Below the pieces are notes generated by a model, which saw only the letters and a list, made by a program, of their open reading frames with translations, did not search any database and was not told where the DNA came from. Shown one piece after another: positions 17,183-60,216 of a DNA stretch of 64,000 nucleotides; position 1 is the stretch's first letter; each line of letters begins with the position of its first letter. Position numbers and translations under genes: made by a program. Location: contig CM072335.1 in the NCBI GenBank assembly GCA_036874045.1, positions 18,483,501 through 18,547,500 of the forward strand, in the 5' to 3' direction. Origin of the DNA: Cymodocea nodosa. Lineage: Eukaryota; Streptophyta; Magnoliopsida; Alismatales; Cymodoceaceae.

Positions 17183-17379
17183 TGTTTAGAATGAAAAAGT
17201 GCATATTATTAATGGTTAAATGATGGTTAAGTGCATAATATTTAACTTATCATATGAGAATTAAGCCATTATGTTATAATTGCATTGTTATATGTTTTAA
17301 TTGAAGAATCTGCTTAATTTTGGGGAATTAATGTCAATTTAGTACATTTCTGAACTGTTAGTAAGTTGCAGGCTATGAA

Positions 17380-17990
17380 ATTCTTAAGTATCCGAATTTT
17401 CTAATATTTCAGACAGTTATGTTTAACAGACCGAACATGTCGAATAGTTATGTTTAAATTGTCGAACAGTTATGTTTTGAAAGAATATTTTATTATTTCC
17501 TGAAGTACACGTGTCGAAACCATAATGCATGACTTAAGTGAACTTTCGGTGAGTTATCTCTAACTATCCGAAATTGCAGTTGGGCATTAGATAGTTATAT
17601 GTGTAACCCTCCGAAATCTCTTTTTATTTATAAAATAGCTGTGGACACGTGTTATGTTCTGGTAAAGTGACTTAAGTGGATTTTCGGTGAGTTAGCTGTA
17701 ACTATCCGGAATGCATCTGAGCATCGGATAGTTAGACCTGTAACTCTCCGAAATGTGTATTTTATTATTAAATTGCTGCTGACACATGTCGAGATTTGGT
17801 AGATTTACTTAAGTTATATATCGGTGAGTTAGCTGTAACTATCCGAAATGCATCTAAGCATCAGATAGTTAAGTTTATAAGTATCTGAAATGCACCTGAG
17901 TATTAGATAGTTAAATTTATGCACGTGTTTTATAGTTAAATCAACGAAGAAAGTCCGTTGAGTTATTTATAACTCCACGGACTATTTATT
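17380..17990 (+). repeat. Hairpin and G-box array in G1 U3
   Basis: Successive units pair TCGGTGAGTTA with TAACTATCCGA and CGGATAGTTA with TAACTCTCCGA, for example 17684-17709 and 17724-17751. CACGTG occurs at 17508, 17646 and 17922. The right LTR has the same array at 31430-32045. The AACGG/CCGTT arms resemble MYB cores and ACGTG is a bZIP core, so an enhancer function is plausible but not shown. Confidence 0.75.
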
Positions 17991-18144
17991 TTCTAATATG
18001 CCACTATAGCGGTTGCAGAAACAGGACAGTTGGAAGAAAAACCATGATTGCATGTATTGCGTAGGAAGAAGAAATCATCGCCATTGATATGAATGAAGGA
18101 AATCCAACCAATCATTCAAGCAGAAACAGTTACTACTGAGGAAA

Positions 18145-18152
18145 TATAAAAG
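18145..18152 (+). promoter_or_regulatory. TATA box, G1 5' LTR
   Basis: TATAAAAG. The identical octamer is at the same place in every LTR of the family: 32209, 36581, 47734 and, on the minus strand, 61442-61449. Transcription would start near 18175. Confidence 0.75.
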
Positions 18153-18545
18153 AAAAGAAGAAAAAGAAGTGCGTGTGTGATCGATGGACGGCCAATATAT
18201 ACAGAGGAGGAGCACCGAGCTTTCTGCAGACAGTGTTGGCGATTCTCCAAAGTACCACACCAACCATCGTTACCACCACCATATCTACCATAATCACTAA
18301 CCATCGGAGGTATGTGAGAATACTTTCTTGATGTCGGGTCGATTTCGAGCCAAACACAATGCCTGACAACCACTGTGAGGAGTGATCGCGTCACGGGAAG
18401 GGAAGCCATTTTCACCAAGCGCCGACTCATATTTCAGGAGATCGTAAAGCTTTTAGCCTTGGCTTTGGGTTGATGCTTGTATGCTGAAGAGAAGATTATC
18501 GTGCAATTTTGGACTCACGATTCTATAGGGAGAGGAGACAGAATT

Positions 18546-18551
18546 GTAAGT
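18546..18551 (+). other. Candidate leader splice donor
   Basis: GTAAGT preceded by CAGAATT, conserved at 36975 in G2 and at 61051-61046 on the minus strand in G3. It lies downstream of the TATA box and upstream of the primer site, the place where retroviruses have the donor for subgenomic RNAs. Its use is inferred. Confidence 0.4.
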
Positions 18552-19395
18552 GGTTTAATTTTCAGTGGTGTAATCGCGTTGCAAGTAGTGTCGGAAGTAT
18601 TTACTGTCGAGTGAGATTACTTTACATTTCACATTTCGCCCATTTCCATATTCATATTAAAACAAAAATACCAAAAACAATTTATCTATGTTTGTATGTT
18701 GTATTTGAGTGTTGTATTGTTTGTGTTGCATCGTGATTAATATTATCTTTGTTAGAGTTGTGATTGTTTTATGTTTGTTTTAGTTTTACAGTTTACTGAA
18801 ATTGGTTCGTTCAAAAGACTTAAAGATTTTAATGGTTACTGTTTGAATTATCTGAATGTTAGTATTGCTTAATGATAAATCCAGTGTTTACTAACATTAA
18901 AGAGTTTAATTGATGTTATTTACAATCTGTGGAATCACCCAATGGTTGGCCGAATTCCTCTGTAAATAGCAGTATTAAAAAGAAAAGACAGGCTCGTAGA
19001 GTTAACTTAAGTCCACAAGGTTAGTCCATTGAGTTAGCCATAATTCAACGAACTTTATCCGTTGAGTTAACTGTAATTCAATGGAGAGCTTATTGAATAT
19101 ATAAATTTGATTGTTAACAAACGAACAGTTCTCAAATTCTTCAGCAATTCCTTGTGGGATCGACCTGTACTTGCACACTAATACAATAGATACTATGCAC
19201 TTGCAGTTAAAGTACAAATTGGAATTAATATCTAAATTGTATTAAAGGTTGTTTGTTTACTTCTAAAAGAAAGAATAGGCATAAAGATAAATTAACTAAA
19301 AAAAAAGAAGTAACAAATCCAAGTTTTTCTGGTACGTTATTGGAGATCTAATCAGATACTTTGATGTAGTGCTAGGAAAACACAAACTAGTTTTA

Positions 19396-19413
19396 TGGCG
19401 CCATTGCCGGGGA
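19396..19413 (+). other. G1 primer binding site
   Basis: TGGCGCCATTGCCGGGGA, one base different from the G2 site TGGCGCCGTTGCCGGGGA. The TGGCGCC start is typical of Athila-type elements, usually assigned to tRNA-Asp. Confidence 0.88.
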
Positions 19414-19519: not shown

Positions 19520-22500
19520 ATGGCATATGCTTATGCTCAAAGATTTTTGAAACCTGTAATTAGCTTATGTGAATTCTGCAAGTCTAAAGGGCATGACATT
19601 TCTAACTATTTGAAACTGAGACGTTTATAGATGATTAGATCCCATGAACAACAAATGAATTATCCTCAATATGATAGAGCCGAGTATGATAATCCTATAG
19701 TTTACCCAACTGATGGTCAGCATAGAATGTGTAATATGTTGAGAGACACAGAAGTTTGGGATAGGTATGACAGACTGGAGCGTAGTATAGAGCAAAATCT
19801 TGACAAACTGGAATACTTTATGTGTCAGCAATAAGAAGTCAACCAATTAAATTATAAGGAAGCATATTCAGAACCTAAAAAGGATATAATTTACGAAACT
19901 GAAAAAACCATAATGAAAATTGATCAAAAATTGAATGCAATGAGATTAGATGATCTGGAAAGAAAATTAAAAGCATTGGACGAATATACAATGAAAATAC
20001 AAGTTATGCAAGAGGACAATAAAAATTATAATGTTATAAACCTGCAAAATTTGCAAAACACAACTAAAAGAAAATATTAATGCAAGAAAATTTAAAGAAT
20101 GCACTTTAAAACTAAAAACAATTGAAGATCATAAACATGAAAATGATATACAAAAACATCATAAAAGTAATGAAAATCTAGAAGATGTATGTGTAACATT
20201 AAGATCAGGAACTGATATACCACCAAGAACTCAAAATGAAAATGATATGAAGGTGGATAAGAGTAAAAATCAAAATGATAATGAAAATGTAATAGCTGAA
20301 AATCTAGAAATCACTGAAGAACAATCTGAATCTGCTAATGAAGTTAAAAATGATCAAACAAATCAAATGAAAGAAAAAGAATCTTTGAAATCAAAATCTT
20401 TAGTACCCTATCCTGAAAGATTACAACAAACAATACTTGAAAAACAAGAAAAAATCAAAGAAATTTTTGAAAAAGTACAAGTTAACATTCCTTTGTTAGA
20501 TCTAGAAGAAATTAATTTAGAAAATGATGATGTTCAATTAGGAGCTCTAGCTTCTGATGGGCAACATTTAGAATTAAAACCTTTACCTCCTGAATTAACC
20601 TATATATTTCTAGAAGATAAACGAACCTGTCCAATCATTATTGCTTCAGATTTAACAGAGGATCAAATAGCTAAATTAAAAGATGTAGTAAAGAGTTATA
20701 AAGAAGCAATATGATGGACTATGACTGATATAAAAGGGTTAAGTTCAACTTTATGCTGTCACCACATATATTTAGAAGAAAATGCTAAACTTGTTAGAAT
20801 TCCTGAGAGGAGATTAAATCCAAACCTTAAAGAAGTAGTCAAGAAGGAAATAGTGAAATGGTTGGATAATGACATAATTTATCCGATTTCTGATAGCTCA
20901 TGGGTTAGCCCAATCCATGTAGTTCCCAAGAAATCAGGATTAACAGTTATTAGGAATGAAAGTCAAGACTTGATACCTACTAGAATTCAATCAGGCTGGA
21001 GAGTATGTATAGACTATAGAAAGCTGAATGCTCTGACTAGGAAAGATCATTTTCCCTTACCTTTTATAGATCAAATGCTGGAAAGATTAGCAAGGCAAGA
21101 ATATTTTTGTTTCCTAGACGAGTATTCAGGTTATAATCAAATTCCAGTAGCATTAGAGGATCAAGAGAAAACAACGTTCACATGTCCTAATGGAACTTAT
21201 GCTTTTAAGAGAATGCCATTCCGATTATGCAATGCGCCAGCTACCTTTCAAAGGTGTATGCAAGGCATATTTACTGGAATGACTGAGGATTTCTTAGAAA
21301 TATTTATGGATGATTTTACTGTATATGGCAACTCATATGAAGTTTGTTTAAGCAATTTAGACCAAATATTAAAACGCTGTGTGGAAAAAAATCTGGTTTT
21401 AAATTTGGAAAACTGTCACTTCATGGTTAAACAAGGAATAGTCTTACAGCATGTTGTTTCTAAGAAAGGGTTGGAAGTAGATAAAGCTAAAATAGAAGTA
21501 ATTTCTAATCTACCAGAACCTAAATCAGTAAAAGATATTATATCATTTCTAGGACATGCTGGTTTTTATCGAAGATTTATTAAAGACTTTAGCAAAATAG
21601 CTAGACCTTTAACTAATCTATTAAAAGATGTCCCATTTAACTTTGATAAAAATTATAAGGAAGCATTTTTCAGACTTAAGACTAGCTTAATTTGAACTCT
21701 TATAATTCAAGCACCTGATTGGAACCATCCATTTGAATTAATGTGCGATGCATCTGATTTTGCTATAGCAGCAGTGTTAGGACAGAAAATAGAAAAATCT
21801 CCTAGAGTGATTCATTATGCAAGCAAAACCTTAAATGATGCTCAAGTTAATGACACAACTACTAAAAAAGAACTATTAGCTATTGTGTTTGCCTTAGAAA
21901 AGTTTAGATCATATCTAATTGGAGCTAAAGTGATAGTATATACGGATCATTCAGCTCTAAAACATTTAATAAAGAAAAAAGAGACTAAACCTAGATTGAT
22001 CCGATGGATATTATTATTACAAGAATTTGATCTAGAAATTAAAGATAAAAAAGGTTGTGAGAATGTAGTAGCAGATCATTTATCAAGATTACAAATAGAA
22101 AAATCAAATATTGAAATTAAGGATAATTTTCTTGATGAACAATTAATGACCATCAACACAATGCCTTGGTATGTAGACATAGTTAATTACTTAGTAACTA
22201 GTTTAACACCTAAGGATTGGAATAGACAAGATAAGAAATTGTTTTTCTCAAGAGTAAAATATTACTATTGGGAAGACCCATACTTATTTAAGAAATGTCC
22301 TGATTTGGTTTTAAGGAGGTGTGTTCCAGAAACTGAATATCCGAGCATATTGTCTTTCTGTCATGACCAAGCTTGTGGAGGGCATTTTGGTTCAGGGAAA
22401 ACTGCTGCAAAAATTCTGCAATGTGGGTTTTATTGGCCAACACTATTGAAAGATGCTCATAAATATTGCTTAAGTTGTTTAAGATGTCAACAAATAGGAA

Positions 22501-23465
22501 GAATATCAAAGAGGAATATGATGTCTCTTAATCTTATTGTTGAGGTTGAAATCTTTGATGTGTGGGGAATAGATTTTATGGGTCCATTTCCTATGTCTAA
22601 TCAATTTAATTACATATTGTTGGGGGTAGATTATGTATCTAAATGGATAGAAGCTATTCCTACAAAAACTAATGATAACAAAGTGGTAATACAATTTATA
22701 AGAACAAATATATTTACTAGATTTGGAATACCTAAAGCTATTATCAGTGATAGAGGAACTCATTTCTGTAATAGAAGTTTTGAAGCCTTAATGAAGAAAT
22801 ATGGAGTAAACCACAAAATTACATCATATCATCCGCAAACAAGTGAACAAGTAGAAAGTGCAAACAAACAAATTAAGTTAATCTTAGAAAAAGTAGTAAA
22901 TCCTACTAGAACAGATTGGGCTTATAGATTGATAGATGAACTTTGAGCTTATAGAACTACTTATAAAACGAGCTTAGGTATGTTACCTTTTAAGCTAGTA
23001 AATGGAAAAAGTTGTCATTTACCTGCTGAAATTGAACATAAAGCTTATTGGGCATTAAAAACTCTGAACACTAATTTAAATCAAGCTACTGAAAATAGAA
23101 AAATGCAACTAATTGAATTAGAAGAATTTAGAAATGAAGCTTATTCGAAGACTGTAAGAGAAAAAGAGAAAATTAAATTCTAGCATGATAGAAAAATTAT
23201 TCCAAAAAGCTTTGAAATAGGACAAGAAGTATATCTTTATATGGCTAGACTCCATAACCATCTAGGAAAATTAAGATCTAGATGGGGAGGACCTTACATA
23301 GTTTGAAATATTTATCCTTATGGAGCTATTGAAATTGAAAATCCTAAAAATCAGAATATATTTAAAGTAAATGGACAAACACTTAGACCTATTCTGAAAA
23401 TACTAAAAAGCTCCTTTGGAATTATAGAAGAAGTCAGAGTAGAGGATTACTCGAGCTTTACTTAG
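19520..23465 (+). pseudogene. G1 pol polyprotein (protease deleted), broken
   Basis: The conserved ATG at 19520 begins MAYAYAQRFLK. A zinc knuckle follows, CEFCKSKGHDISNY, whose last Cys is Tyr. A charged linker rich in Asn/Lys/Glu runs to about 20490. The reading frame then passes from NIPLLDL directly to EEINLENDDV, skipping the roughly 690-bp protease segment present in G2 and G3. RT: YRKLNALTRKDHFPLPF, FKRMPFRLCNAPATFQRCM and FMDDF near 21303. RNase H begins MCDASDFAI at 21741. Integrase shows the HHCC finger, [17 protein letters not shown] and [10 protein letters not shown]. Stops at 19626, 19832, 20712, 21693, 22944, 23181 and 23304 and a frameshift near 20060 break it. Most stops fit TGG to TAG/TGA or C to T changes. 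Confidence 0.92.
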
Positions 23466-23792: not shown

Positions 23793-23880
23793 TACGCTTA
23801 ACTCAACGAGCTTACTCCGTTGAGTCTTGAGTTAGTCAACGAGCTTATTCCGTTGAGTTAACTATAACTCAACGGAGTAC
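23793..23880 (+). repeat. Perfect hairpin cluster upstream of third ORF, G1
   Basis: Arm TCCGTTGAGTTA at 23849-23860, loop ACTA, and its exact reverse complement at 23865-23876. Further CCGTTGAGT and CAACGAG copies lie to the left. The 12-bp arms are perfect. Confidence 0.85.
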
Positions 23881-24059: not shown

Positions 24060-25878
24060 TGAGGAACAGTTGTCAGGACCTCTAGTTCAGCTAACAAAAC
24101 CTTTGCCACGATTAGCATTTGTTTGGCCGAGAACTGAAGAAGAAGAGAAAGAATTTACTAGCTTGGTCAAAACAGCAAGAGACCAAGGTGATACTTAAGA
24201 AATAGCTATGGCTAAGGCACATATTTTATATGATGCCATTAAGAGAAAAAGGGTCGAAGAAAGGATAAGGGCCCAATACAAAATAAAAGTTGAATAGTAT
24301 CAGGCAGCAGCTACTGCCAAACCTATTGCAAAAAGAGATGAAGCTAGTCCTTCGAGACTAGTAATTTTAGAAAAAGTTAAACAAGAAGAGCCAGTACCTA
24401 TAGCTCGAAGGCTTGTAGAGCTTACTTTTGTAGATTTAATTTCAGAAGATGAAGAGGAAGAAGAGGCACAACTAATCAGAAAAAAGAAAGGAAAAGAAAA
24501 AGTGCTTGAAAATGAGGAAATTAAATCTGAAGTACCAATTTTTATAAGGCCTGTGGAGCAAATTTTTATTAACCTGCTATCTGATTCTGAGGAGGAGTAG
24601 GAGGAGCTGCAGCAGTAGGAGTAGAGAAAAGAAGAAAATCAGGCTGAAATTAGTCTACAGCCTATACAAGAAGAAACAGAAATTAGGGCAGAAACTGAAT
24701 TGCTTGTGACTCCATCCCAATCTGTTACAGAATCAGAAAGAACAGTAACAGAACAGATTGGTAGTCAGGAGGAAGAAGAAAGAGTAGAAAATGAAGAGAA
24801 TGAAAGAAGTCATTTGGACAAAAATAATTTCACAAATTCCATTGAAGAGCAAGAAATGCTTCAGCAATATATGGAAAGAATTCAAGATAGAGTGGAGAGT
24901 TCTACCGGCTCACCACCACAAACAAAAACAGAAATAGAAATTCAAGAATCTATAAAAAATGTTCAAATGCAGCCTATGCTAGAGGAAGAGCAAGTACAAA
25001 CCCGTCTGGAACAACAAAGTCAACTTCCTAACCTGACTAAAACAACAATTTTGAATGAAGTACATTTTTGTAGTCAGGAAGCTTATACCAAATACCAAGA
25101 AATAAGGGGTTATGACATTATTTACAGTAGACCAGTAAATTGAGATGGAATGCAAGAAATCAAAGATCTATTTGAATTCCAAGGTCTACTGCAATTCATT
25201 TCTCAAGAGAGAGGGCATGCAGTATATGAGAATTTAGTGCCCTATTTTTATGCAAATTTAAGAGAAAGAGAAGGAGGATTAATTTCAAACGTGGAGGAAG
25301 TTGATGTACAGATAACACCAGAGCTTCTCCACAACATTTTTGGATTGAAGAATGAAGGAATAAAAATTTTGGAAGATACAACTACCATCGCGTAGACTGA
25401 ACAAGAAATCAAAGATTGTTTAGCTATCAATCCTGGTGTACCTTTATTAAACAGACTGAAGCATTTAAGTGGTAAGGCACACATGGTAGCTAACATTTTG
25501 ATTAAAAATGTCTATCAACGACAGGGCCATGACATAGAATTAAGTTAATTTGTCAAATGGGCCACATATGCAGTTGTAAACAGGATTCAAATAAATTGGT
25601 CTGTAGTTTTTATCTCCAAGCTGAAAGTAGTAAAGAAAAAATTGTTTTATGGAGATTTGATTCCATTACTGATGGTGGACTGTATCGATTTCACTAAATG
25701 GACATCAAAAAGGATCAGATCAAGAACCATTTCAGTGAAAGAATACAGAAATTTTGTAGCTGCAGAGATAGTTGTACCTTCTGGAGGCATTACAGGAGCT
25801 GTAGAAAGAATTAATCAATTAGAACTTCAATTAGAAAAACTCTAAAAGGAAGTAGATGAACTTAGGAATAGAGATTAA
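24060..25878 (+). pseudogene. G1 third ORF (PF20167-like), broken
   Basis: Starts near ATG 24060 and ends at TAA 25876-25878 (ELRNRD). The first part contains FVWPRTEEEEKEFTSLVKTA, then long Glu-rich acidic stretches (ISEDEEEEEAQLIRKKKGKE), likely disordered. The C-terminal third is a folded-looking domain: IIYSRPVN, LFEFQGLLQF, VPYFYANL, ITPELLHNIFGLKNEG, LLNRLKHLSGKAHMVANIL, FVKWATYAVVNRIQINW, FYGDLIPLL, and a Leu heptad LELQLEKL near the end. This resembles the plant transposon PF20167 domain from memory. Stops break it (for example at 24598, 25141, 25393, 25546, 25843), and about 300 bp near the start are missing relative to G3. No signal peptide or membrane segment is visible, so it is not an obvious envelope protein. 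Confidence 0.75.
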
Positions 25879-26546
25879 ATTGTATTGCTCGTCTACTTGT
25901 GTAAAATTGTATGAAATTATATGATGTACTTGTAATGTAATTGATTCATATTAATGAATATAATTTTTCAGATGCAATTTTCATACGTGTTTTGAATATG
26001 AAATGAATGGAATTTATTAAATATTATGTAATTTGTGGAACTTTATGAATGAATATGTAACATATTTACAATTTGCTGAATGGCAGGATAATTGCTTAAA
26101 AATTTCTACATGTGGCAAGGTAAAATGTAAATTCTACATAACATAAAATGACCTACAAGTTAAATCTTTATACAATGTTCAGATTTAAATGAATTTTGAT
26201 TAGAATGATGCATTAATGACATAGATTTAACTTTATTTCAGTTAGCAAAATGAAAAAAAAAAGCAGAGAGAAATTTACGAGAGTAAAACTTAGAAGTTGC
26301 TAAGTCTTAACTCAACGAAGTAAGTTCGTTGAGTTAACCGTAACTCCACGAGGTCAGTAATATAATATAAGGTCACTCCGTTGAGTTATCTGTGACTCAA
26401 CGAAGTTAGTCCGTGGAGTTAGTAATAGTAACCGATTGTGTTCCATTGAGTTATCTATAACTCAACGAGGTTAGTTCGTGGATTAAGCAGAACGGTTATT
26501 CTTTTAACCACGAACGACACTTCGTCGGCTTAGCGGTTACTAAAAT
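25879..26546 (+). other. Spacer with hairpin cluster, G1
   Basis: No coding frame seen. At 26300-26490 several GTTGAGTTA ... TAACTCCACGAG and CCGTTGAGTTATCTGTGACTC-type inverted repeats occur, then AACGGTTATT. The same block is at 43660-43870 in G2 and 52060-52280 in G3. It could be a promoter or RNA-structure region for the gag/F-box transcript. Confidence 0.55.
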
Positions 26547-26786
26547 TTGAAATTAATAGTAGTACACGTACCCATAAAAATAGGAACCACGATGCATGTT
26601 GCAAGACACATTCTTGCAATGAGATTTATTCACTTTATGGATGTACATTATATATACAAATCACAATGTTATTTACGAGTTACCAACACTTTTAAAAGAA
26701 AGGAGAATGCTTTGGAGAAACTGGAAGGAGAAGCAGCTGATTCAACTTTATCCGACAACAAATATTTACTGAATGGAAAGCTTTAG
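26547..26786 (+). CDS. Small leader ORF upstream of gag/F-box exon
   Basis: Open for 79 codons (the start counted here is TTG-type; a later Met lies near codon 11) with THVARH- and RFIHFMDVHYIY-like text. It is open in G3 (52036-51785) and shortened by a frameshift in G2 (43900-44121). It overlaps the MESFRL exon in another frame. I recognise no domain. It may be an upstream ORF or simply leader sequence. Confidence 0.3.
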   Translation: MKLIVVHVPIKIGTTMHVARHILAMRFIHFMDVHYIYKSQCYLRVTNTFKRKENALEKLEGEAADSTLSDNKYLLNGKL

Positions 26787-28163
26787 ACTGGTATGTAATT
26801 AATCTTCTGCTATTTATTTATGAACACATGGACCCGTTCTCTAAGCACTAAACGATTAGTAAGAACACCTACCTAGGAATTTTCATTGCAGAGGAGTACT
26901 AAAAAATTTTCTGAACTGAACTTTAACGAAATTCTTTGGGGTGTAGCTAACCTTTCTTTAAAAGAGAACGTAGAGATGGCTATTCCAGTAGAAAAACCAT
27001 TAGGAGAGATTCTGTATCCGGAATTAGTTGATGAACCTTCATGTATTCGATTGCCAAACTTTGAGGGAGATAGGTTTGAACTGAAATCTAATTATATTAG
27101 TCAATTGCTACATTTTCATGGATTAGAAAGAGAGGATGACTATTATTTTCTTAGAGGATTTAATGAAGTTTGTCAAATGATGAAAATGCCAAACATGAGT
27201 ATAGATGCTATTAAACTTAGATATATCCCTTTTTCTTTAAAAGACACAGCTAAGAGATGGTTATATACTCTGTCGCCTGATTCAATTTCTACATGGACTG
27301 AATTTTGCTCTGTTTTTCTGGAAAAATATTATCCAACACATCAAACGATTAAAAATAAGAAGGAAATATTAATGTGTAGCCAAAAACAAGGTGAATCATT
27401 CTAGAAATATTTTGAAAGATTTAAAGATTTACTGACTCAATGTCCACATCATGCAATGAGTAAAGCACAATTAATAGGTATAATTTATGAAGGCATAGAT
27501 GTTTCAACGAAATCTTTATTAGAATCTACTTATCAAAATGGATTTTTAAAGTTATGTAGTGAAGAAGCATGGGCATATTTAGAAAACTTTGCAAAAAGAA
27601 CTACATAGTGGGAAAATTTGGCTGAAGCTAATGCAAATAAAAAAATATTGCCAAGAGGAATGCATGAAATAGATTCAAGTACTATGCTTGAGGTGAAATT
27701 AAATGAATTAACAAAGAAAATAGAAGAGTTATCATTAAATCAAAAGCTAGCAGAAAAGAATGCAAACATAAATGATTTAGATATTATTTATGCTAGAAAC
27801 CAGAGAGATAACTTGGGAAATTCTTATAATCCTAATTGGAGAAATCACCCGAATTTATCTTGGAGAAACAACAACTTCTAGGGAGGAGAAAATATAAATG
27901 AGAAGAATATAAGTTATGAAGCATTATTGGAACAAGGATCTAGAATAGAGAAATTAGAAAAGATAATCCAACAATTAAACAATCGTCTCGATTTTGTATT
28001 TGGAAGTACTGCAATTCAAAATCAGAATAGAAATATACCACTTAGACAGAAGGAACCAATGGAAGGTAGACCTACTGGAGTATTGCCAATACAAGCTATA
28101 CCTAATCCTGTCAATAGAACGGTCAATGAAATTAATACTTCTTCTAGGAGGATAGCTGAATGA
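26773..28163 (+). pseudogene. G1 gag (capsid), split by a short intron; broken
   Basis: The main frame (26892-28163, 424 codons including stop) has no ATG near its start; TAG at 26874-26876 closes it upstream. A six-codon exon, MESFRL (26773-26790), ends at donor GTATGT. An acceptor TTTTCATTGCAG ends at 26891. Joining them keeps the frame, with a 101-nt intron. Capsid text: IRLPNFEGDRFELKSNYISQ, YFLRGFNEVCQMM, IKLRYIPFSLKDTAKRWLY, DSISTWTEF, and QCPHHAMSKAQLIGIIYEGID. This is Athila-type gag. Stops at 27402, 27607 and 27880 interrupt it; the first is TAG where G3 has TGG. No zinc knuckle follows; the knuckle is at the start of pol instead. The placement 3' of pol is unusual. Confidence 0.8.
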
Positions 28164-29491
28164 AGCAGCATATCTGAAGCAACTATCTATATGTATATAT
28201 GTTTTTATTTTTTAGTTAATAGTATCGTAGAGTCAGTCCTTAACTCAATGAACTTATTCCGTTGAGTTATGCCTTAACTCCACGAGGGTGTGTAGTAGTT
28301 ATGTTAATTTTTTGTCTCTACTAAATTTTTGTTTGTGTTATACAGAATCAACAAATGGAATTGATGCAATTACCGTTGGATGCACTAAGGGAAGTACTGA
28401 GTAACTTGTCAACTAAAGATCTGTGCAAGCTGTGTTGTGTATCAAAGGAAATTAAAGACTGTATTGAAGAAAAATATTTTCAAGGACTACAAGCTGCAAA
28501 AATGACTAAGATTAGAGATGGATTCATATGGAGGTCATTTAATCATAGTTCAAATACCCATGAATATTTGGCTATGGAAGAAACTACTAGAATTCCACCC
28601 AATACATTAGAAGGAATAAATCATATTATGGGGATAGATGAAGGATTAATCATATATAGGATGAGACCAAGGTATGCAAGTTTATTATTACCTGATATTT
28701 TGATAAGAAATCCTATAACAGGAGAAGAATGGAATATAGGAAGACCTAATAGATTTGAAGTACCAACTGTAAATTGTGGATCGGCTTTAATATTTTTTGA
28801 TAAAAATTCTGCAATTCTTGAAAAATTATATTATTGGAGACCTACAGGAAATTGGGGTGAAGATTTATGCTTAAGTGTGTATAATTTTCTGAATAGATCT
28901 TGGAATGAAAATATTATGATATATCTAGGACAGAAATCATTAATTAACCAAACACATGTCATACTTGATGGATATATATATCTTGTCACAGATATTTCAA
29001 TTGCATTTGGATCTGATTTATACATAGTGAGCATAGACAGTTATGATGAATATATAGAAATTTTACTTGTACCGAGTGATATAGCTAAACCACCATTTAC
29101 AGAATTTAATAAAATTCAAATAGGAATGTGGTATAATGAAGAAGATGATCCTACTTTATGTCTGATAAGATGGTGGGATGAACTGATGAAATTTCAAATA
29201 TGGATTATGGAAGACATAAATGAATGGAAGTGGGAAGAGAAGTATATTGAAATAGATGTAGAAATAGAAACTGGTACATTACCCTGGAACCAACAAGGAT
29301 CCCTTTCTACATTTCATATCATTAATAGTAATACACTTATATTTAGAATTTATAATATATTACACGTTTACAAATTAAGGAGCAAGAACTGCATGAAAAA
29401 AGAATTAATAGCAAGAAGAACTATGCCTAAAAAGTTTGCTTGGACTGATACATTTATTCCATTTGTTCCTACTTTTCAATCATGTTCTTAA
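26773..29491 (+). CDS. F-box protein encoded by retrotransposon G1, exons 26773-26790 and 28346-29491
   Basis: Exon 2 is open for 382 codons including stop. With exon 1 (MESFRL) the protein is 387 residues. Residues about 12-45 are an F-box: LPLDALREVLSNLSTKDL then KLCCVSKEIKD. The rest resembles the plant F-box-associated region: GLIIYR, ILIRNPITGEEWNIGRP, WGEDLCLSVYNFLNRSWNE, HVILDGYIYLVTD, IWIMEDINEWKWEE, LIARRTMPKKFAW. F-box proteins bind SKP1 and select substrates for SCF ubiquitin ligases; here the substrate is unknown. This is the only long ORF of G1 without a stop. G2 has one nonsense change and G3 two. The ORF is not from the usual retrotransposon gene set and was probably captured from a host F-box gene. 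Confidence 0.8.
26791..28345 (+). other. Inferred intron with alternative acceptors, G1
   Basis: The donor is GTATGT at 26791. The proximal acceptor ends at 26891 (gives gag) and the distal acceptor GTTATACAG ends at 28345 (gives the F-box ORF). G2 lacks precisely this segment: its sequence passes from CTTCAGACTG (ending 44140) to AATCGACAAATGG. G3 keeps the intron (51792-50240 minus). The presence/absence polymorphism at exact GT and AG borders is direct evidence for splicing of the long intron. Use of the short intron is inferred from frame and motifs. Confidence 0.8.
28164..28345 (+). other. Gag-F-box intergenic segment, intron end
   Basis: Contains one hairpin unit (CTCAATGAACTTATTCCGTT then GAGTTA at about 28244-28268) and a T-rich run before the acceptor TACAG at 28341-28345, a suitable polypyrimidine tract. 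Confidence 0.55.
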
Positions 29492-31236
29492 GCTGTAATT
29501 TTGTGTGTTTAATGTTGTGTGTATTCTATGTTTATGTATAAAAAAAAAAAAAAAAAAATCAATCTAGTTTGTTGGTATCTATTCTGGGAAATCAACTGGC
29601 TTGCTTGTGAGCCACCATAGGCATAGGAGTATGGGTTCCATACAAGACACTGATTTATTAATATCTGTTAAGTGTTATTTTGTTTTATATTTTACTTTTA
29701 ACTGTGAATGAAAAGTTTTTCAGAATCAAAAATCGGAATATGCAAGAGATACATACAAAACAAGGTATGTAACCAGTTACTTACCCTAAATTTTAAATCA
29801 AACAAAACTATATTCATGCCTACTACAATTACTATACTTATTGTCAAATCTTTTACATTGAGGACAATGCAAAATGTAGGTATGGGGGGGAGGTAAATAA
29901 AGTAACAACCATGTAAGTTTGTTAATTAAAAAAAATTAAAATGGTACTGCAAAGTTTTGTGGAAATTGAAAATTTTTATGAACTTGCTGTAACTATCTGA
30001 TAATTGAGACTGTAAAATTTATAATTTGTAACTACTTGAATGTTATATTTAGAAGGCTATATATGATGCTATAGAATTTACTATTTATGCAAATCTAGAT
30101 GTAGTATCTTATGATTTTTCTGAATTTCATGAGTTTAATAGTTTCACGATTTTAAAATGAAATCAAAATGCTTAATGAAAAATCAGTAAATTATCTGAAG
30201 TCCTGAAGGAGTTGAGATGTGAATTCTAGATTAAATGAAACACATATGATTAAAGATACATTTAATTTGACTGATTGAACTTGTAGAATGATTTTTGTGT
30301 AGATCTTATTAAACTACAGAAAAAGTATGAGCTTATTGTTATGGATTCATATTTTTAGTAAATGATAGAAACATGACTATATGAGATTGGTGTTTTACTT
30401 CATCTATATTAATGAAATACGTACATATACAGTATGTGATTAATGCTTTGTTTTGTGTGTATTTTGATTGAAAAAAAAAAAAGAAGGAAAAAAGAGAAAA
30501 AATTGAGAGTTTATTGACTTGTTTGATCACGAGCCTTTTGTACTTGAGCAGATAGGTATGTAAGGATTGTTGACCTGAAAAAGGACTCTTGAAATCTAGT
30601 AACCTAAGATCCTGATCAGATCTAGGATTGTTGACTGAAAGCTCGTTAAATGGGTACATTAGAAAGCTCATGTACGATTCAAGCTTGTCAAATTAACTTT
30701 TAAAGTAAAAAAAAAAAAGAGAGAGAAGAAAAGAAAAAGAAAAAGAAAAAAAAAAAAAAAACATATACTGTTCTGAAAAGATACAAGTGTTTTGTGAAAT
30801 ATAGATATCTTATGAATCGAGTATATTTTCTGTAATCTAGAATTGGTGTAATATGAATCTAGAATTAACTTTTGAAGTTGTTTTAATGGAGATACAATTC
30901 TTTATTCTACTTGTCTTAATCATATTGAATTGGATTGTACTTTGATTCGTATGTTGTTGAAATTTCTTCTAGAAATCTTATTGGAAAATTCAAGATAGCA
31001 GATGATGAAAAGAAGAACAAACGATAATATAATTAACACCTATGTGATGATGATATACTTTGTATGTAATTGACATATATTCTAAGTATATTAGCAGGTT
31101 GATTACTAAAACTTACAGAATATATATTCTTATGCTAACAGAAAAGAAAAAAAGAAGAAGAAGAATTAATTCTAGCAATTTTTGAAAGACCAATTAATTA
31201 GATCTTAGTTTGCTAAGGGACTAGCAAAATTTAGGT
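29492..31236 (+). other. G1 3' spacer
   Basis: AT-rich and noncoding as far as I can see, with poly(A) and AG-rich runs (29540, 30472, 30709-30761). It includes a conserved block with hairpin CATTG-AGGA-CAATG and a G7 purine run (29856-29893). Its first 140 bp are also the last part retained by G3 before truncation. Confidence 0.65.
29856..29893 (+). other. Conserved hairpin and internal purine tract, G1
   Basis: CATTG at 29856-29860, loop AGGA, CAATG at 29865-29869, then GGGGGGGAGG at 29884. G2 has the same at 45720-45757. I recall similar GGGGAC AATG / TTTGGGGG blocks downstream of pol in Athila-type elements. It may be a second plus-strand primer or a packaging structure. Confidence 0.55.
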
Positions 31237-31246
31237 ATGGGGGAAG
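31237..31246 (+). other. G1 polypurine tract
   Basis: ATGGGGGAAG directly abuts the TGTTTAG start of the right LTR, as expected for the plus-strand primer. Confidence 0.9.
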
Positions 31247-33439
31247 TGTTTAGAATGAAAAAGTGCATATTATTAACGGTTAAATGATGGTTAAGTGCAT
31301 AATATTTAGCTTATCATATGAGAATTAAGCTATTATGTTATAATTGCACTATTATATACTTTAATTGAAGAATCTGCTTAATTTTGGGGAATTAATGTCA
31401 ATTTAGTACATTTCTGAACTATCGGTAAGTTGCAGGCTGTGAAATTCTTAAGTATCTAAATTTTCTGATATTTCGGACAATTATGTTTAACAGACCGAAC
31501 ATGTCGGATAGTTATGTTTAAATTGCCGAACAGTTATGTTTTGAAAGAATATTTTATTATTTCCTGAAGTACACGTGTCAAAACCATAATGCATGACTTA
31601 AGTGAACTTTCGGTGAGTTATCTCTAACTATCTGAAATTATAGCTGGGCATCGGACAGTTATATGTGTAACCCTCTGAAATATCTTTTTATTTATAAAAT
31701 AGCTGTGGACACATGTCATGTTCTAGTAAAGTGACTTAAGAGGATTTTCAGTGAGTTAGTTGTAACTATCCGAAATGCATCTGAGCATCGGATAGTTAGA
31801 CCTGTAACTCTCTGAAATGTGTATTTTATTATTAAACTACTGCTGACACGTGTCAAGATTTGGTAAATTTACTTAAGTTATATATCAGTGAGTTAGCTGT
31901 AACTATCCGAAATGCATCTGAGTATCGGATAGTTAAGTTTATAAGTATCCAAAATGCACTTGAGCATCGGATAGTTAAATTTTTGCACGTGTTTTATAGT
32001 TAAATCAACGAAGAAAGTCCGTTGAGTTATCTGTAACTCCATGGGCTATTTATTTTCTAATATGCCACTGTAGCGGTTGCAGAAACAGGACAGTTGGAAG
32101 AAAAACCACGATTGCATGTATTGCGCAGGGAGAAGAAATCATCACCGTTGATATGAGTGAAGGAAATCCAACCGATCATTCAAGCAGAAACAGTTACTAC
32201 TGAAGAAATATAAAAGAAAAGAAGAAAAAGAAGTGCATGTGTGATCGATGGACGACCAGTGTATACAGGGGAGGAGCACCGAGCTTTTTGCAGACAGTAT
32301 CTACGATTCTCCAAAGTACCACACCAACCATCGTTACCACCACCATATCTACCATAATCACCAACCATCAGAGGTCTATGAGAATACTTTCTTGATGTCG
32401 GGTCGATTCCGAGCCAAACATAGTGCCTGACAACCATTATGAGGAGTGATCGCGTCACGGGAAGGGAAGCCATTTTCACCAAGCGCCGACTCATATTTCA
32501 GGAGATCGTAAAGCTTTTAGCCTTGGCTTTGGGTTGATGCCTATATGCTGAAGAGAAGATTATCTTGCAATTCTGGACTCGTGATTCTATAGGGAGAGGA
32601 GACAAAATTGTAAGTGGTTTAATTTTCAGTGGTGTAATCGCGTTGCAAGTAGTGTCGGAAGTATTTACTGTCAAGTGAGATTACTTTACATTTCATCTTT
32701 CGCCCATTTCCATGTTCATATTAAAACAAAAATACCAAAAACAATTTATCTATGTTTGTATGTTGTATTGTTTGTGTTGCATCGTGATTAATGTTATCTT
32801 TGTTAGTGTTGTGATTGTTTTATGTTTATTTTAGTTTTACAGTTTACTTAAATTGGTTCGTTCAAAAGACTTAAAAATTTTAATGGTTACTGTTTGAATT
32901 ATCTGAATGTTAGTATTGCTTAATGATAAATCCAGTGTTTACTAACATTAAAGAGTTTAATTGATGTTATTTACAATCTGTGGAATCGCTCAATGGTTGG
33001 CCGAATTCCTTTGTAAATAGTAGTATTAAAAAGAAAAGACAGGCTCGTGGAGTTAACTTAAGTCCACAAGGTTAGTCTGTTGAGTTAGCCATAATTCAAC
33101 GAACTTTATCTGTTGAGTTAACTGTAATTCAATGGAGAGCTTATTGAATATATAAATTTGATTGTTAACAAACGAACAGTTCTCAAATTCTTCAGCAATT
33201 CCCTGTGGGATCGACCTGTATTTGCACACTGATACAATAGACACTATGCACTTGTAGTTAAAGTACAAATTGGAATTAATATCTAAATTGTATTAAAGGT
33301 TGTTTGTTTACTTCTAAAAGAAAGAATAGGCATAAAGATAAATTAACTAAAAAAGAAGAAGTAACAAATCCAAATTTTTTTGGTACATTATTGGAGATCT
33401 AATCAGATACTTTGGTGTAGTGCTGGGAAAACACAAACA
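31247..33439 (+). mobile_element. G1 3' LTR
   Basis: 2193 bp, starting TGTTTAGAATG and ending ACACAAACA before TGTCA. It contains the U3 hairpin array, TATA box at 32209, GTAAGT at about 32610 and the antisense open frame 32494-32180. It is collinear with the left LTR with scattered transitions. Confidence 0.92.
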
Positions 33440-35921: not shown

Positions 35922-37764
35922 TGTTTAGAATGAAAAAGAGCATATTATTAACGGTTAAATGATGGTTAATTACATAATATTTAGCTTATCATATGAGAAT
36001 TAAGCCATTATGTTATAATTGCACTGTTATATGCTATAATTGAAGAATCTGCTTAATTTTGGGGAATTAATGTTAATTTAGTACATTTATGAATTGTTAG
36101 TAAATTGCAGGCTGTGAAATTCTTAAGTATCCGAAAATGCATCTGAGCATCGGATAGTTAGACTTGTAACTCTCCGAAATGTTATTTTATGTTTAAACTA
36201 CTGCTGACACGTGTCGAGATCTGGTAGATTTACTTAAGTTATAACTCGTTAAGTTAGCATAATTGTACGGGTTGAGTTGCTATATTGAACACTAAGGCAA
36301 CGCGTTAGGTTAGCGTTATAAACTTAAGTTGTTATTTTTGCATGTGTTTTATAGTTAAATCAACGAAGGAAGTCCGTTGAGTTATCTGTAACTCCACGGA
36401 CTATATATTTTCTAATATGCCACTGTAGCGGTTGCAGGAACAGACAGTTGGAAGGAAAAACCACGTTTGCGCGTATCATGCAGGAATTCAATCGTGCAGG
36501 GAGAAAGAAATCATCGCCGTTGATCTGAAGGAAGGAAATCCAACCGACCATTCAAGCAGAAGCAGTTACTACTGAAGAAATATAAAAGAAAAGAAGAAAA
36601 AAAGAAGAAGGGTGTGTGATCGATGGACGGCCAGTGTATACAGAGGAGGAGCACCGAGCTTTCTACAGAAAGTATCGGCGATTCTCCGAAGTATCACACC
36701 AACCATCGTATCACCACCATAATCACCAATCATCGGAGGTCTGTGAGGATACTTGCCTGATGTCGGGTCGATTCCAAGCCAAACACAGTGCCTGACAACC
36801 AATATGAGGAGTGATCGCGTCGCGGGAAGGGAAGCCATTTTCACCAAGCGCCGACTCATATTTCAAGAGATCATAAAGCTTTTAGCCTTGGCTTCGGGTT
36901 GATGCCTGTATGCTGAAGAGGAGATCATCTTGCAATTCTGGACTCGCGATTCTATAGGGAGAGGAGACAGAATTGTAAGTGGTTTAATTTTCAGTGGTGT
37001 AATCGCGTTGCAAGTAGTGTCGGAAGTATTTACTGTCAAGTGAGATTACTTTACATTTCACCTTTCGCCCATCACATCAAAACAAAAATACCAAAAATAA
37101 TTTATCTTTGTTTGTATGTTGTATTGTTTGTGTTGTATCGTGATTAATGTTATCTGTATTAGTTTTATGATTGTTTTATGTTAGTTTTAATTTTACAGTT
37201 TTCTACAATTGGTTCGTACAAAAAACTTAAAGATTTTAATGGTGACTGTTTGAATCATTTGAATGTTAGTATTGCTTAATGATAAATCCAATGTTAACTA
37301 GCATTAAAAAGCTTAATTGATGTTATTTACAATCTATGGAATCGCCCAATGGTTGGCCGAATTCCTCTGTAAATAGTAGTATTATAAAGAAGAGATAGGC
37401 TCGTGGAGTTAACTTAAGTCCACGAGGATAGTCCGTTGAGTTAGCTATAACTCAACGAACTTAGTCCGTTGAGTTAACTGTAACTCAACGGAGTGCTTAT
37501 TGAATATAAATTTGAATTATTCACAATCAAACATTTCTTAAATTCGTCAGCAATTCCCTGTGGGATCGACCTGTACTTGCACACTGATACAATAGACACT
37601 GTGCACTTGCAGTTAAAGTACAAATTGGAATTAATATCTAAATTGTATTAAAAGTTGTTTGTTTACTTTTAAAAGAAAGAATAGGCATAGAGATAAATTA
37701 ACTAAGTAAAAATAGAAGTAACAAATCCAAGTTTTTCTAGTGTAGTGCTGGGAAAACCCAAACA
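35922..37764 (+). mobile_element. G2 5' LTR
   Basis: Begins TGTTTAGAATG and ends CCCAAACA. Relative to G1 it lacks much of the U3 hairpin array. In its place at about 36236-36340 it has a stretch like the copia M LTR. TATA box at 36581, GTAAGT at 36975, antisense open frame 36859-36569. A cluster of perfect 12-bp hairpins lies at 37405-37495. Confidence 0.9.
37405..37495 (+). repeat. Perfect hairpins in G2 5' LTR
   Basis: Arm TCCGTTGAGTTA at 37465-37476, loop ACTG, exact reverse-complement arm at 37481-37492. A second pair (GTCCGTTGAGTTA then TAACTCAACGAAC) lies just upstream. The right LTR repeats it at 48619-48646. Confidence 0.88.
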
Positions 37765-37771
37765 AGTTTTT

Positions 37772-37789
37772 TGGCGCCGTTGCCGGGGA
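37772..37789 (+). other. G2 primer binding site
   Basis: TGGCGCCGTTGCCGGGGA, 7 bp after the LTR, the unmutated Athila-type site. Confidence 0.9.
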
Positions 37790-37878
37790 ATTGAATTGAA
37801 TTGAATTAATATAAGCAACTATTAGAGCTGTTTCGTTTTAATAGCCAGAGTTGTGTGTTTTCTTCTGTAATTGAGAAT

Positions 37879-40800
37879 ATGGCATATGCTTATGCTCAAA
37901 GATTTCTGAAACAGTTAATTAGCATATGTGAATTCTGCAATTCTAAAGGACACGACATTTCTGATTGTTTGAAATTGAGACATTTAAAGATTGATAGATC
38001 CCATGAACAACAAATGAATTATCCTCAATATAGAATCCTATAGCCGAGTATGAGAATCCTATAGTTTACCCAACTAATGGTCAATATAGAATGTGTAATA
38101 TGATGAGAGACACTGAAGTTTGGGATAGCTATGACAGATTGGAGCATAGTATAGAGCAAAATCTGGACAAACTGGAATACTTTGTGTGTCAACAACAAGA
38201 AGTCAACCGGTTAAACTATAAGGAGGCGTATTCAGAACCTAAACAGGATATAATTTACGAAACTGAAAAAGCCATAAAGAAAATTGATCAAAAATTGAAT
38301 GCAATGAAATTAGATGATCTGGAAACAAAATTAAAAGCATTAGACAAAAATGCAATGAAAATACAAGTTTTGCAATAGGACAATGAAAATTATAATGTTA
38401 TAAACCTGCACAACTTGCAAAATATACAGCAAACAGAAAACACTAATGTAAGAGAATTTAAAGAATGCACTTTAAAACTAAAAACAATTGAAGATCATAA
38501 TCACAAAAATGATATACAAAAACATCATGAAAGTAACGAAAATCTGGAAGATGTATGTGTAACATTAAGATCTGGAATTGATATACCACCAAGAACTCAA
38601 AATGAAAATGATATGAAGGTGGACAAGAGTAAAAATCAAAATGATAATGAAAATGTAATAGCTGAAAATCTAGAAATCACTAAAGAACAATCTGAATCTG
38701 CAATTGAAGCTAAAAATGATCAAACAAATCAACTGAAAGAAAAAGAGTCTTTGAAATCAAAATCTTTAGCACCCTATCCTGAAAGATTACAACAAACAAT
38801 TTCTGAAAAACAAGAAAAAATCAGAGAAATTTTTGAAAAAGTACAAGTTAACATTCCTTTGTTAGATCTATTGTAGAATATGCCACCTTGTGCTAAATTT
38901 CTGAAGGATTGGTGTACTAAGAAAATAGAGCGAAAAGTTCTTAGAAAAGTCTTTTTAGCTGAGCAAAGTAGTTCCCTATTTCTGCCACAAATTCCTAAAA
39001 AGTTATCTGATCCTAGAATCCTTGTTATATCATGCACCATAGGAAATACCATTCTAGAAAGAACCTTAATAGACTTAGGTGCAGGTATAAATGTTATGCC
39101 AAGTGATATATTTGCATCCTTAGGATTAGAAGGCTTAACTCCTACTAGTACGGTTATTCAATTAGCTGATAGAAGTATAAGATACCCTAGAGGAAAAATA
39201 GAGGATGTCTTAATTAAAATCAAGAATTTTATATATCCTATTGATATTGTAATTTTGGATTCTTAACAAATTAAGCATAAAAATAGTGATACATCTTTAA
39301 TTTTGGGAAGGCCATTTTTAGCAACATCAGGGGCTGTTATAAATTGTAAAACTGGAGTAATGAAGTTAGTATATGGTAATGAGGGTACTCAATTAAATAT
39401 TTTCAAACAAGAAAGGTTTGAGGAGTTAGAAATGTCCTTACATACCATAGACTTTTTAGAGGATGAAGGAGATATGTTAGATGATGTGATTCAAGAAGAA
39501 TTAAATAGGCAAATCAATTCTGAAACTTTAGAAGAAAGTGAAAGCATAAATATAGAAGGAGATCAGGAAGAAATTAATTTAAAAAATGATGATGTTCAAT
39601 TAGGAGCTCTAGCTTCTGATGGGCAGTATTTAGAATTAAAACCTTTACCTCCTGAATTAACCTATATATTTCTGGAAGATAAACGGACCTGTCCAATCAT
39701 TATTACTTCAGATTTAAAAGAGGATCAAATGGCTAAATTAAAAGATGTAGTAAAAAGTTATAAAGAAGCAATAGGATGGACTATGACTGATATAAAAGGG
39801 TTAAGTTCAGCTTTATGCTGTCACCACATATATTTAAAAGAGAATGCTAAAGAGAATGCTAAACCTGTTAGAATTCCTGAGAGGAGATTAAATCAAAACC
39901 TTAAAGAAGTAGTCAGGAAGGAAATAGTTAAATGGTTAGATAATGATATAATTTATCTGATTTCTGATAGCTCATGGGTTAGTCCAATCCATGTAGTTTC
40001 GAAGAAATCAGGATTAACAGTTATTAGGAATGAAAGTCAAGACTTGATACCTACTAGAATTCAATCAGGCTGGAGAGTATGTATAGACTATAGAAAGCTG
40101 AATGCTGTGACTAGGAAAGATCATTTTCCCTTACCTTTTATAGATCAAATGCTGGAAAGATTAGTAGGGCAATAATATTTTTGTTTCCTAGATGGGTATT
40201 CAGGGTATAATCAAATTCCAGTAGCATTAGAGGATCAAGAGAAAACAACTTTCACCTGTCCTAATGGAACTTATGCTTTTAAAAGAATGTCATTCGGATT
40301 ATGCAATGCGTTAGCTACCTTTCAAAGGTGTGTGTAGGGCATATTTACTAGAATGACTGAAGAATTTTTAGAAATATTTATGGATGATTTTATTGTATAT
40401 GGCAACTCATATGAAGTGTGTTTAAGCATTTTAGACCAAATATTAAAATGCTGTGTGGAAAAAAATCTGGTTTTAAATTGGGAAAAATGTCACTTCATGG
40501 TTAAACAAGGAATAGTCTTAGGGCATGTTGTTTCTAAAAAAGGGTTGGAAGTAGATAAAGCTAAAATAGAAGTAATTTCTAATCTACTAGAACCTAAATC
40601 AGTAAAAGATATTAGATCATTTCTAAGACATGCTGGTTTTTATAGAAGATTTATTAAAGACTTTAGCAAGATAGCTAGACCTTTAACTAATCTATTAAAA
40701 GATGTTCCATTTAACTTTGATAAAAATTGCAAGGAAGCATTTTTCAGACTTAAGAGTAGCTTAATTTGAACTCCTATAATTCAAGCACCTAATTGGAATC

Positions 40801-42545: not shown

Positions 42546-42639
42546 TAAGAAATCAGTTTTTATGTTTATATATATATGTTTATTTTGAATAAAAAAAAAA
42601 AAAAACATTAAAAAAAAATATATATAAAACGTAAAAATA

Positions 42640-43040
42640 GTTGCGGTTCAACTGACTAGATCCATCGATATGACCGGAAAATTAAAAAAATATTTAGGTC
42701 TGACCGAAGCGTAGCATCGGTTTGACCGGAAAATTAAAAAATATTTAGGTCTGACCGAAGCGTAGTATCGGTTAAACCGGAAAAAATAATTGTATATTAA
42801 TTTTCAGAAAAAAATATTGGTTTTATCGAAACATAGTATCGGTTCAACTGAAAGAAAAATAAAAAAATAAAAAATATTTAGGTCTGACTGAAGCATAGTA
42901 TCGGTTAAATTGGAAAAAAAATTGTATATTAATTTTCAGAAAAAAATATTGGTTTTACCGAAACATAGTATCGGTTCAACCGAAAGAAAAATAAAAAATA
43001 TTTAGGTCTGACCGAAGCATAGTATCGGTTAAACCTGTAA
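42640..43040 (+). repeat. CCGAAGCATAGTATCGG minisatellite, G2
   Basis: Six or seven units alternating two forms, one with GGTCTGACCGAAGC and one with GGTTTTACCGAAACA, each followed by ATAGTATCGGTT. It is expanded relative to G1 and G3. Unit cores are short inverted repeats. Confidence 0.85.
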
Positions 43041-43094
43041 AAAAATAGAGAAACTATTCTTTGTAATATTTTTATTATTATATTTGCTTGTACG

Positions 43095-43899
43095 AGGAGT
43101 CCGTTGAGTCTTAAGTTAGTCAACGAGCTTATTCCGTTGAGTTAAATGTAACTCAACGAAGTACTGTAGCTAAGACCTAAAATTAGGAAAACTCCAGAAG
43201 GAAGTAGATGAATTTAGGCATAGAGATTAAATTGTATTGTTCGTCTACTTGTGTAAAATTGTATGAAATTGTATGGTGTACTTGTAATGTAATTGATTCA
43301 TATTAATGAATATAATTTTTCAGATGCAATTTTCATACGTATTTGGATGTGAAATGAATGGAATTTATTGAATATTATGTAATTTGTGGAACTTTATGAA
43401 TATGTAACAGATTTACAATTTGCTAAATGACAGGATAACTACTTAAAAATTTTTGCATGTTATAAGGTAAAATGTAAATTATGCATAACATAAAATGACC
43501 TACAAGTTAAATCTTTATATAATGTTCAGATTTAAATATATTTTAATCAAAATGATGCATTAATGACATAGATTTAACTTTATTACAGTTAGCAGAATGA
43601 CAAAGAAAAAAAAAATAGAATAGAAAACTTACAAGAGTGAAACTTAGAAGTTGCTAGTGTCAACTCAACGAAGTAAGTCTGTTGAGTTAACCGTAACTCC
43701 ACGAGCTCAGTAATATAATATAAGGTCACTCCGTTGAGTTATTTGTAACTCAACGAAGTTAGTCCATGGAGTTAGCAACAATAACCGACTATGTTCTGTT
43801 GAGTAATCTATAACTCAATGAGGTTAGTTTGTGGATTAAGTAGAACGGTTATTCTTTTAACCACAAACGAAACTTCGTCGGTTTAGCGGTTACCAAAAT
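43095..43899 (+). other. G2 spacer with third-ORF scar and hairpins
   Basis: Hairpins with CCGTTGAGT arms lie at 43095-43160. The sequence then jumps near 43175 to the last codons of the third ORF (AAACTCCAGAAGG at 43191) and continues like 25870 onward in G1. The hairpin cluster before the exon is at 43660-43870. The junction has filler bases and no GT/AG, so it is a deletion and not a splice. Confidence 0.7.
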
Positions 43900-44121: not shown

Positions 44122-44122
44122 A

Positions 44123-47064: not shown

Positions 47065-47074
47065 ATGGGGGAAG
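47065..47074 (+). other. G2 polypurine tract
   Basis: ATGGGGGAAG immediately before the right LTR. Confidence 0.9.
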
Positions 47075-52036: not shown

Positions 52037-52059
52037 ATTTTGGTAACCACTAAAACGAT

Positions 52060-60209: not shown

Positions 60210-60216
60210 TAAAACT

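Follow-up and report, generated by a model that had tools for sequence, protein, structure and literature searches.

Does a plant retrotransposon carry an F-box gene of its own, how is such a gene expressed, and is it maintained? These questions are raised by a stretch of 64,000 nucleotides from Cymodocea nodosa (GenBank assembly GCA_036874045.1, contig CM072335.1, positions 18,483,501 to 18,547,500 of the forward strand), here referred to as the window. It contains three related Ty3/gypsy elements with long terminal repeats (LTRs), G1, G2 and G3, all of which carry an open reading frame (ORF) for an F-box protein. We suggest that an Athila-like family took up a plant F-box gene as a spliced accessory gene, and that the product is probably an element-owned receptor of the SKP1-cullin-F-box (SCF) ubiquitin ligase.

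The F-box gene and its copies

In G1 the ORF runs from 28355 to 29491 and codes for 378 amino acids without stops. The Pfam F-box family PF00646 matches residues 4-41 (E 4.5e-10, 39.4 bits, above the cut-off of 20.5), and at E <= 0.1 it matches 11 of the 11 copies scanned, with a best E of 3.1e-11. The F-box that the original prediction had read in this ORF, naming a profile search as the check, is therefore confirmed. The C-terminal region, said there to be F-box-associated-like, is matched by the NCBIfam family TIGR01640 (F_box_assoc_1) in all 11 copies at E <= 0.1 (best E 2.7e-7). However, the match in G1 (E 3.8e-6, residues 115-334) has 26.4 bits and is below the cut-off of 37.9, as is that of FBA_1 (PF07734; E 0.015, 15.6 bits, cut-off 21.1), which matches 6 of the 11 copies. 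Matches to TIGR01640 above the cut-off are present in the genome, and one of them, L057, is a distant relative, see below.

28346..29491, forward strand: F-box exon of G1, from the ORF with its ATG at 28355 and the profile matches
44123..45289, forward strand: F-box ORF of G2, spliced form, beginning at the ATG of exon 1, with one in-frame stop at 44924-44926
49091-50260, reverse strand: F-box of G3, with two in-frame stops and gag upstream

The position between gag and the purine tract, claimed for the three copies, is found in G1, but G2 is without gag and G3 ends before its own 3' end. Likewise, the F-box ORF of G1 is uninterrupted while its other ORFs are broken, as had been noted, but this is weak evidence, and the F-box ORFs of G2 and G3 are interrupted.

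The gene is not restricted to a single local duplication. The genome (374.6 Mb) was searched with 32-mers, allowing up to 3 mismatches, and the reversed-pattern controls gave 0 each. The F-box-coding 32-mer is found at 3,579 places. A protein search gives at least 109 near-full-length copies; among the matches listed, 26 are without an in-frame stop and 83 contain stops. When these copies are united with at least 142 element-type matches from another search, at least 237 loci are obtained, with 14 common to both. The surroundings of the gene are constant. At 20 loci of ten kb, one of which is G1, the same tail follows the F-box in 19; before the F-box, 17 have gag or its remnant and three have the spliced leader. 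At 16 of the 20, the integrase or post-integrase region, the env-position ORF and the leader are also in order.

One donor and two acceptors

The alignment of the three copies shows that one exact segment, which includes gag, is absent from G2: it begins with GTATGT, directly following AGACTG, and ends with TTATACAG, directly preceding AATCRACAAATGG. Upstream of this segment, ATGGAAAGCTTYAGACTG shares the frame of the F-box ORF; position 26773, where the original prediction began the gene, is the ATG of this upstream exon, which splicing would join in frame to the F-box ORF. A second acceptor, TTTTCATTGCAG, lies 101 nt past the donor and would join the same exon in frame to gag. One donor is thus combined with two in-frame acceptors, that of gag or that of the F-box.

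26773..26790, forward strand: shared exon 1, coding part ATGGAAAGCTTTAGACTG (MESFRL), from the copy alignment and the frame
26791..28345, forward strand: gag-containing intron of 1555 nt, GTATGT...TTATACAG, exactly absent in G2 and five others of 42 copies
26791..26891, forward strand: alternative intron of 101 nt, whose removal would join exon 1 to gag in frame, its junction found at one genomic place without mismatch
26892..28163, forward strand: gag of G1 (Retrotrans_gag, E 6.1e-9), broken by stops

The 42 copies, ranked by F-box similarity, consist of G1, G2 and G3, the 19 next-ranked, the 10 ranked after these, and 10 lower ones chosen as stop-free. Among them the gag-less junction is seen in 6, the intron is kept in 28 and 8 are not classifiable; L054 is a further spliced copy beyond the 42. 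In the tree of the F-box ORFs the gag-less state needs 6 changes, of which well-supported branches force 4, and a single gag-less clade is rejected (p-AU 3.2e-8). Genome-wide, the 32-mer of the gag-less junction is found at 206 places. That of the gag junction, predicted from the frame beforehand, is found without mismatch at a single place, identified by the 32-mer only. The exon-1/donor 32-mer is present at 3,498 places, and the F-box and the shared exon are therefore of similar abundance. The unspliced intron/F-box acceptor is present at 1,479, and this lower count may be due to divergence of the pattern or to loss.

We infer splicing because integrated copies lack an exact GT-AG segment. 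Both junctions are present in the genome, and therefore spliced RNAs have been reverse transcribed and integrated, many times in the case of the F-box form. Judged from these copies, the F-box ORF is almost certainly an element gene made by splicing. It is extremely improbable that the gag-less copies are ordinary deletions. Other deletions do occur in the family, that of G1 at a GATC repeat and large ones in L016 and L023, but their ends do not match GT-AG sites; moreover, the same gag-less junction recurs on separate, well-supported branches, and the second junction was predicted by splice rules and then found. For the large deletions in L023 and L016, a 5' splice joining the leader to the 3' unit was also considered, but was rejected, as their ends are not plain GT-AG.

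It could be argued that the intron itself is the point, i.e. that removal of gag adjusts the Gag dosage and the F-box exon is merely a 3' exon. The whole gag gene is inside the intron, and in BARE, a Ty1/copia element, splicing is reported to set the Gag dosage (PMC3735527). As in BARE1, alternative splicing here would decide the product of each RNA. However, BARE removes 104 nt and favours Gag (PMC3735527), while in the present family the whole of gag would be lost with the long splice, which leads to another protein. A filler exon would hardly keep a frame of 378 codons, an F-box in every copy scanned and an in-frame start, so we regard this explanation as very unlikely.

Selection on the F-box gene

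The diverged copies L050-L056 have 77-87% amino acid identity to G1 over the main matched piece, with open or nearly open ORFs; those of L051, L052 and L053 (79-85%) are without stop or frameshift. The ratio of nonsynonymous to synonymous changes (dN/dS, omega) was estimated from variants within the family and from pairs. For variants in at least five copies, omega of the F-box is 0.57 (P 0.007), or 0.62 (P 0.004) when the diverged copies are included. The corresponding value for gag is 0.62 (P 0.024), and integrase variants in at least 3 of 13 copies have 0.36 (P 0.003). Single-copy variants, which mostly arise after insertion, have 0.80 in the F-box (P 0.044), 1.07 in gag and 1.01 in integrase.

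Pairs of F-box ORFs were compared with a null matched for mutation type, using 2,000 simulations. Omega is 0.42 for L052-L051 (0 of 2,000 simulations as low) and 0.58 for G1-L051 (P 0.001), with control frames there at 0.79-1.15. It is 0.55 for L054-L051, 0.61 for L053-L051, 0.62 for L041-L051 and 0.73 for G1-L052 (P 0.10). Uncorrected Nei-Gojobori values are 0.23-0.68 for 44 of 45 pairs and 1.08 for one, but this method ignores mutation bias and is unreliable alone.

The alternative is a passenger: a successful lineage would have captured the F-box gene in a single event and since then multiplied it without any function. Several results point in this direction and weigh against a maintained gene. 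Divided by class, F-box variants in two copies have an omega of 0.90 and those in three to five copies 0.88, and only those in at least six copies fall to 0.47. Fixed differences between the 42 copies and L050, L051 and L056 give 0.79 (P 0.30), which does not improve on the control frames (0.60 and 0.70), and the pair G1-L053 gives 1.47. Control frame 1 is itself low, both for the shared F-box variants (0.67, P 0.047; frame 2, 0.94) and for the pairs (0.56-0.85; frame 2, 0.94-1.25), and in gag it is 0.66 for shared variants (P 0.037). The sample of copies is also favourable, as 17 of the last 20 are without stop, 10 having been chosen for that, and most near-full-length copies among the matches listed (83 of the 109) carry stops. 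Structure models of the F-box protein are too poor for use (mean predicted local distance difference test scores, pLDDT, of 31 and 34). A protein database search with the ORF gave 1,064 candidates, none at E <= 1e-3, and of 73 pattern matches in viral contigs none was confirmed.

On the other side, the widely shared variants resemble those of gag, the pairs L052-L051 and G1-L051 are lower than their control frames, seven diverged copies have kept open or nearly open ORFs, and single copies are expected to gain stops once they have inserted. Neutral dN/dS, which the original prediction had set against its own proposal, is thus contradicted by the widely shared variants and by L052-L051, but not by the variants in three to five copies, the fixed differences or G1-L053. 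Constraint on the F-box appears to be moderate and comparable to that on gag; it is not proof, since some tests and controls disagree. A passenger without function is in our view improbable, and the F-box protein has likely been kept for a function. The first proposal, of a captured F-box ORF that may help the element, is partly supported, by the F-box and the F-box-associated-like region, their constant place in a large family and the moderate constraint.

The stops do not help in this respect. There are 31 in the 42 F-box copies, 109 in 30 gag copies and 19 in 13 integrase copies, and unrelated copies have their gag stops at the same CAG and TGG codons. Of the 9 sites tested, 8 require nearly as many changes on the tree as there are carriers, while codon 239 requires 8 changes for its 14 carriers. 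Inherited gag stops, as a sign of an abandoned gag, are therefore not supported. Repeated loss of the same codons is the pattern expected of methylated-cytosine decay and suggests heavy cytosine methylation. Because the gag stops recur independently, little can be concluded from a single copy in which the F-box is intact and the adjacent gag is broken.

The host elements

G1 is a bona fide insertion of 16.3 kb; its LTRs share 94.0% identity, and it is flanked on either side by the target duplication TGTCA. Its 5' LTR ends in CT and its 3' LTR in CA.

17183..19388, forward strand: 5' LTR of G1, starting with TG, target duplication TGTCA at 17178-17182
19396..19413, forward strand: primer binding site TGGCGCCATTGCCGGGGA, tRNA-Asp type by sequence
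20247..22946, forward strand: pol remnants of G1, reverse transcriptase (RT) at 20721-21695, RNase H and integrase at 21741-22946
24298..25845, forward strand: remnants of the env-position ORF, with a weak Transposase_32 match
31235..31246, forward strand: polypurine tract GTATGGGGGAAG, by sequence
31247..33439, forward strand: 3' LTR of G1, ending in CA, target duplication TGTCA at 33440-33444
35922..48916, forward strand: G2, with 96.4% identity between its LTRs, a retained pol region and precise absence of the gag intron
49037..62442, reverse strand: G3, 3'-truncated, gag followed by the F-box

The Transposase_32 match at 25144-25395 is weak (E 1.4e-4, 22.3 bits, cut-off 45). The Pfam domains found across the elements are RT, RNase H, integrase, Retrotrans_gag and, in G3 at the cut-off, aspartyl protease. 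About 0.7 kb with the protease, kept in G3, has been deleted from G1 at a GATC microhomology; a second intron was considered for this absent segment and rejected because of the microhomology at its ends. A second purine tract, GTATGGGGGGGAGG, lies at 29880-29893, about 1.35 kb upstream of the tract that adjoins the 3' LTR. The 3' LTR of G2 adjoins the truncated, opposite-strand G3 (window 48917-49037), and this locus is probably rearranged, because the two five-base flanks of G2 differ. Upstream of G1, at 6050-14499, remnants of Ty1/copia-type ORFs (gag, integrase, RT and RNase H) were recognised by eye.

The LTRs with TG...CA ends, the primer binding site, the polypurine tract, the target duplication and the order RT-RNase H-integrase are those of Ty3/gypsy. 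The primer binding site TGGCGCCATTGCCGGGGA presumably matches tRNA-Asp. The gag gene is placed 3' of both pol and the env-position ORF. No match to gag was found before RT in the four ORFs scanned there, at 20247-20711 of G1, 39303-40172 of G2, and 58308-59132 and 59298-59957 of G3; a gag between the 5' LTR and pol, as expected of Athila, is thus not seen in these ORFs, which cover some of the frames of that region.

From the primer binding site, the size and the ORF after pol, the family can be called Athila-like only, and gene order may not define the lineage. Diaspora and Calypso have a tRNA-Asp primer binding site (PMC1142308). With Athila, Calypso and Diaspora, as described there, the family shares such a site a few bases past the LTR, a long element with long LTRs, and an extra ORF after pol, which is present in most members (PMC1142308). 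However, Diaspora has gag-pol as one ORF after the 5' LTR (PMC1142308), while here gag follows pol and the env-position ORF, lies in an intron and is followed by the F-box. The family is of a known kind, an LTR retrotransposon with an accessory ORF, but with an unusual layout in which gag is in an intron after pol.

A repeated motif and a putative internal promoter

With one mismatch allowed, 98 occurrences of the motif AACTCAACGRR were counted in the window, compared with 3.1 expected, and its copies form palindromes. Over the element copies, RT, integrase, the env-position ORF, gag, the F-box and the tail add up to about 169 kb, in which the motif occurs only once. Per kb there are 6.8 in the post-integrase region, 7.0 in the leader, 15.9 in the stretch before the F-box acceptor and 3.5 in the LTR pieces in view.

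17938-17981 and 18993-19068: AACTCAACGRR clusters in the LTR, from the motif scan
23800..23876, forward strand: cluster between integrase and the env-position ORF
26309..26469, forward strand: palindrome-forming cluster upstream of the putative internal promoter
26649..26656, forward strand: TATATATA, putative internal promoter, from copy comparison
28242..28286, forward strand: third internal cluster, directly before the F-box acceptor

Among the 42 copies, all 16 with the exact exon-1 context and enough flank have TATATATA 119-128 nt before it, and we infer transcription from this sequence. The motif could bind a host or element regulator. In Sireviruses, palindromic boxes are found before the LTR promoter and before env (PMC2829016). 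Those boxes mostly have a CGG-CCG core and belong to Ty1/copia elements, whereas the AACTCAACG boxes described here are in a Ty3/gypsy family and also precede the gag/F-box unit. A pair of inverted repeats of 426 bp with 90% identity (10603-11028 and 63575-63999) lies near clusters of AACTCAACGRR and is possibly another family with the same motif.

Relatives and origin of the F-box gene

The distant relative L057 (G000:C7:17066400-17067560) aligns in two pieces, at 34% and 44% amino acid identity; it contains stops and its frame is broken. Its group is small and decayed, with at least 7 further matches at at least 6 places (61-86% identity), and no gag is found upstream of L057 within the 386 nt read. 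L057 is a candidate for the source gene or for an older element. Another F-box gene, L049, has no real similarity to that of the element (E 4.9) and was rejected as a relative. The PDB gave no match at E <= 1 with the single sequence and one doubtful match with an alignment (E 0.13). A search of the genome for the FBA_1 family gave no match, and as the control was equally without match it is uninformative.

Extra or captured ORFs, some of them between pol and the 3' LTR, are reported from plant LTR retrotransposons, among them Bs1. Capture of host genes by LTR elements has been described as in retroviral transduction (PMC7264820, PMC11963269, PMC13317346); the word F-box does not occur in the main texts of these three papers. 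No precedent for an LTR retrotransposon with an F-box gene was found among the titles and abstract beginnings searched, which include few subscription papers. Parasite-encoded F-box-like proteins are known from viruses, since polerovirus P0 and crinivirus p22 are reported to bind SKP1 and suppress silencing (PMC6593998, PMC6784205). Unlike these, the protein described here is of the plant F-box type with an F_box_assoc_1-like region and is found in a retrotransposon. The likeness considered here is one of role only.

A model for the element-owned F-box protein

We propose that a high-copy Athila-like Ty3/gypsy family captured a plant F-box gene, which would have become a standing accessory gene. 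The unit would start at an internal TATA promoter near the motif also found in the LTR. Use of the near acceptor would give MESFRL-Gag, and use of the far acceptor, which removes gag, MESFRL-F-box, so the choice of splice site would set the ratio of Gag to F-box protein. By analogy with its family, the F-box would bind host SKP1 and the C-terminal region a substrate. The protein is then probably an SCF receptor that redirects a host SCF ligase, and as such it may remove a factor that limits the element.

The F-box protein could instead act on products of the element itself, e.g. in the turnover of Gag or integrase, and not on a host defence factor. Gag and the F-box protein are alternative products of one unit, a layout that suits self-regulation, and gag-less copies have integrated, so that Gag can presumably come in trans. 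Nevertheless, we find this explanation unlikely. Within the model of a redirected host ligase, it can be speculated that the target is a silencing factor, although we would not expect this. It is equally doubtful whether the whole forms a retrovirus-like accessory programme, in which a motif-bearing internal promoter delivers either Gag or an SCF receptor against a host restriction or silencing factor, aiding the spread to about 3,500 copies.

Descriptions of plant retrotransposons usually list gag, pol and ORFs without an assigned role. In the present family such an additional ORF is biochemically recognisable, as it codes for an F-box and an F-box-associated-like region, and it is present at thousands of places. 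The splicing, the position of gag within the intron and the promoter-like region go beyond the first reading of this locus; they provide an example of a gag gene that lies 3' of pol and within an intron, and of an element gene whose splicing can be read from integrated copies. The family opens the question whether endogenous plant elements, like some plant viruses, may recruit the host ubiquitin machinery.

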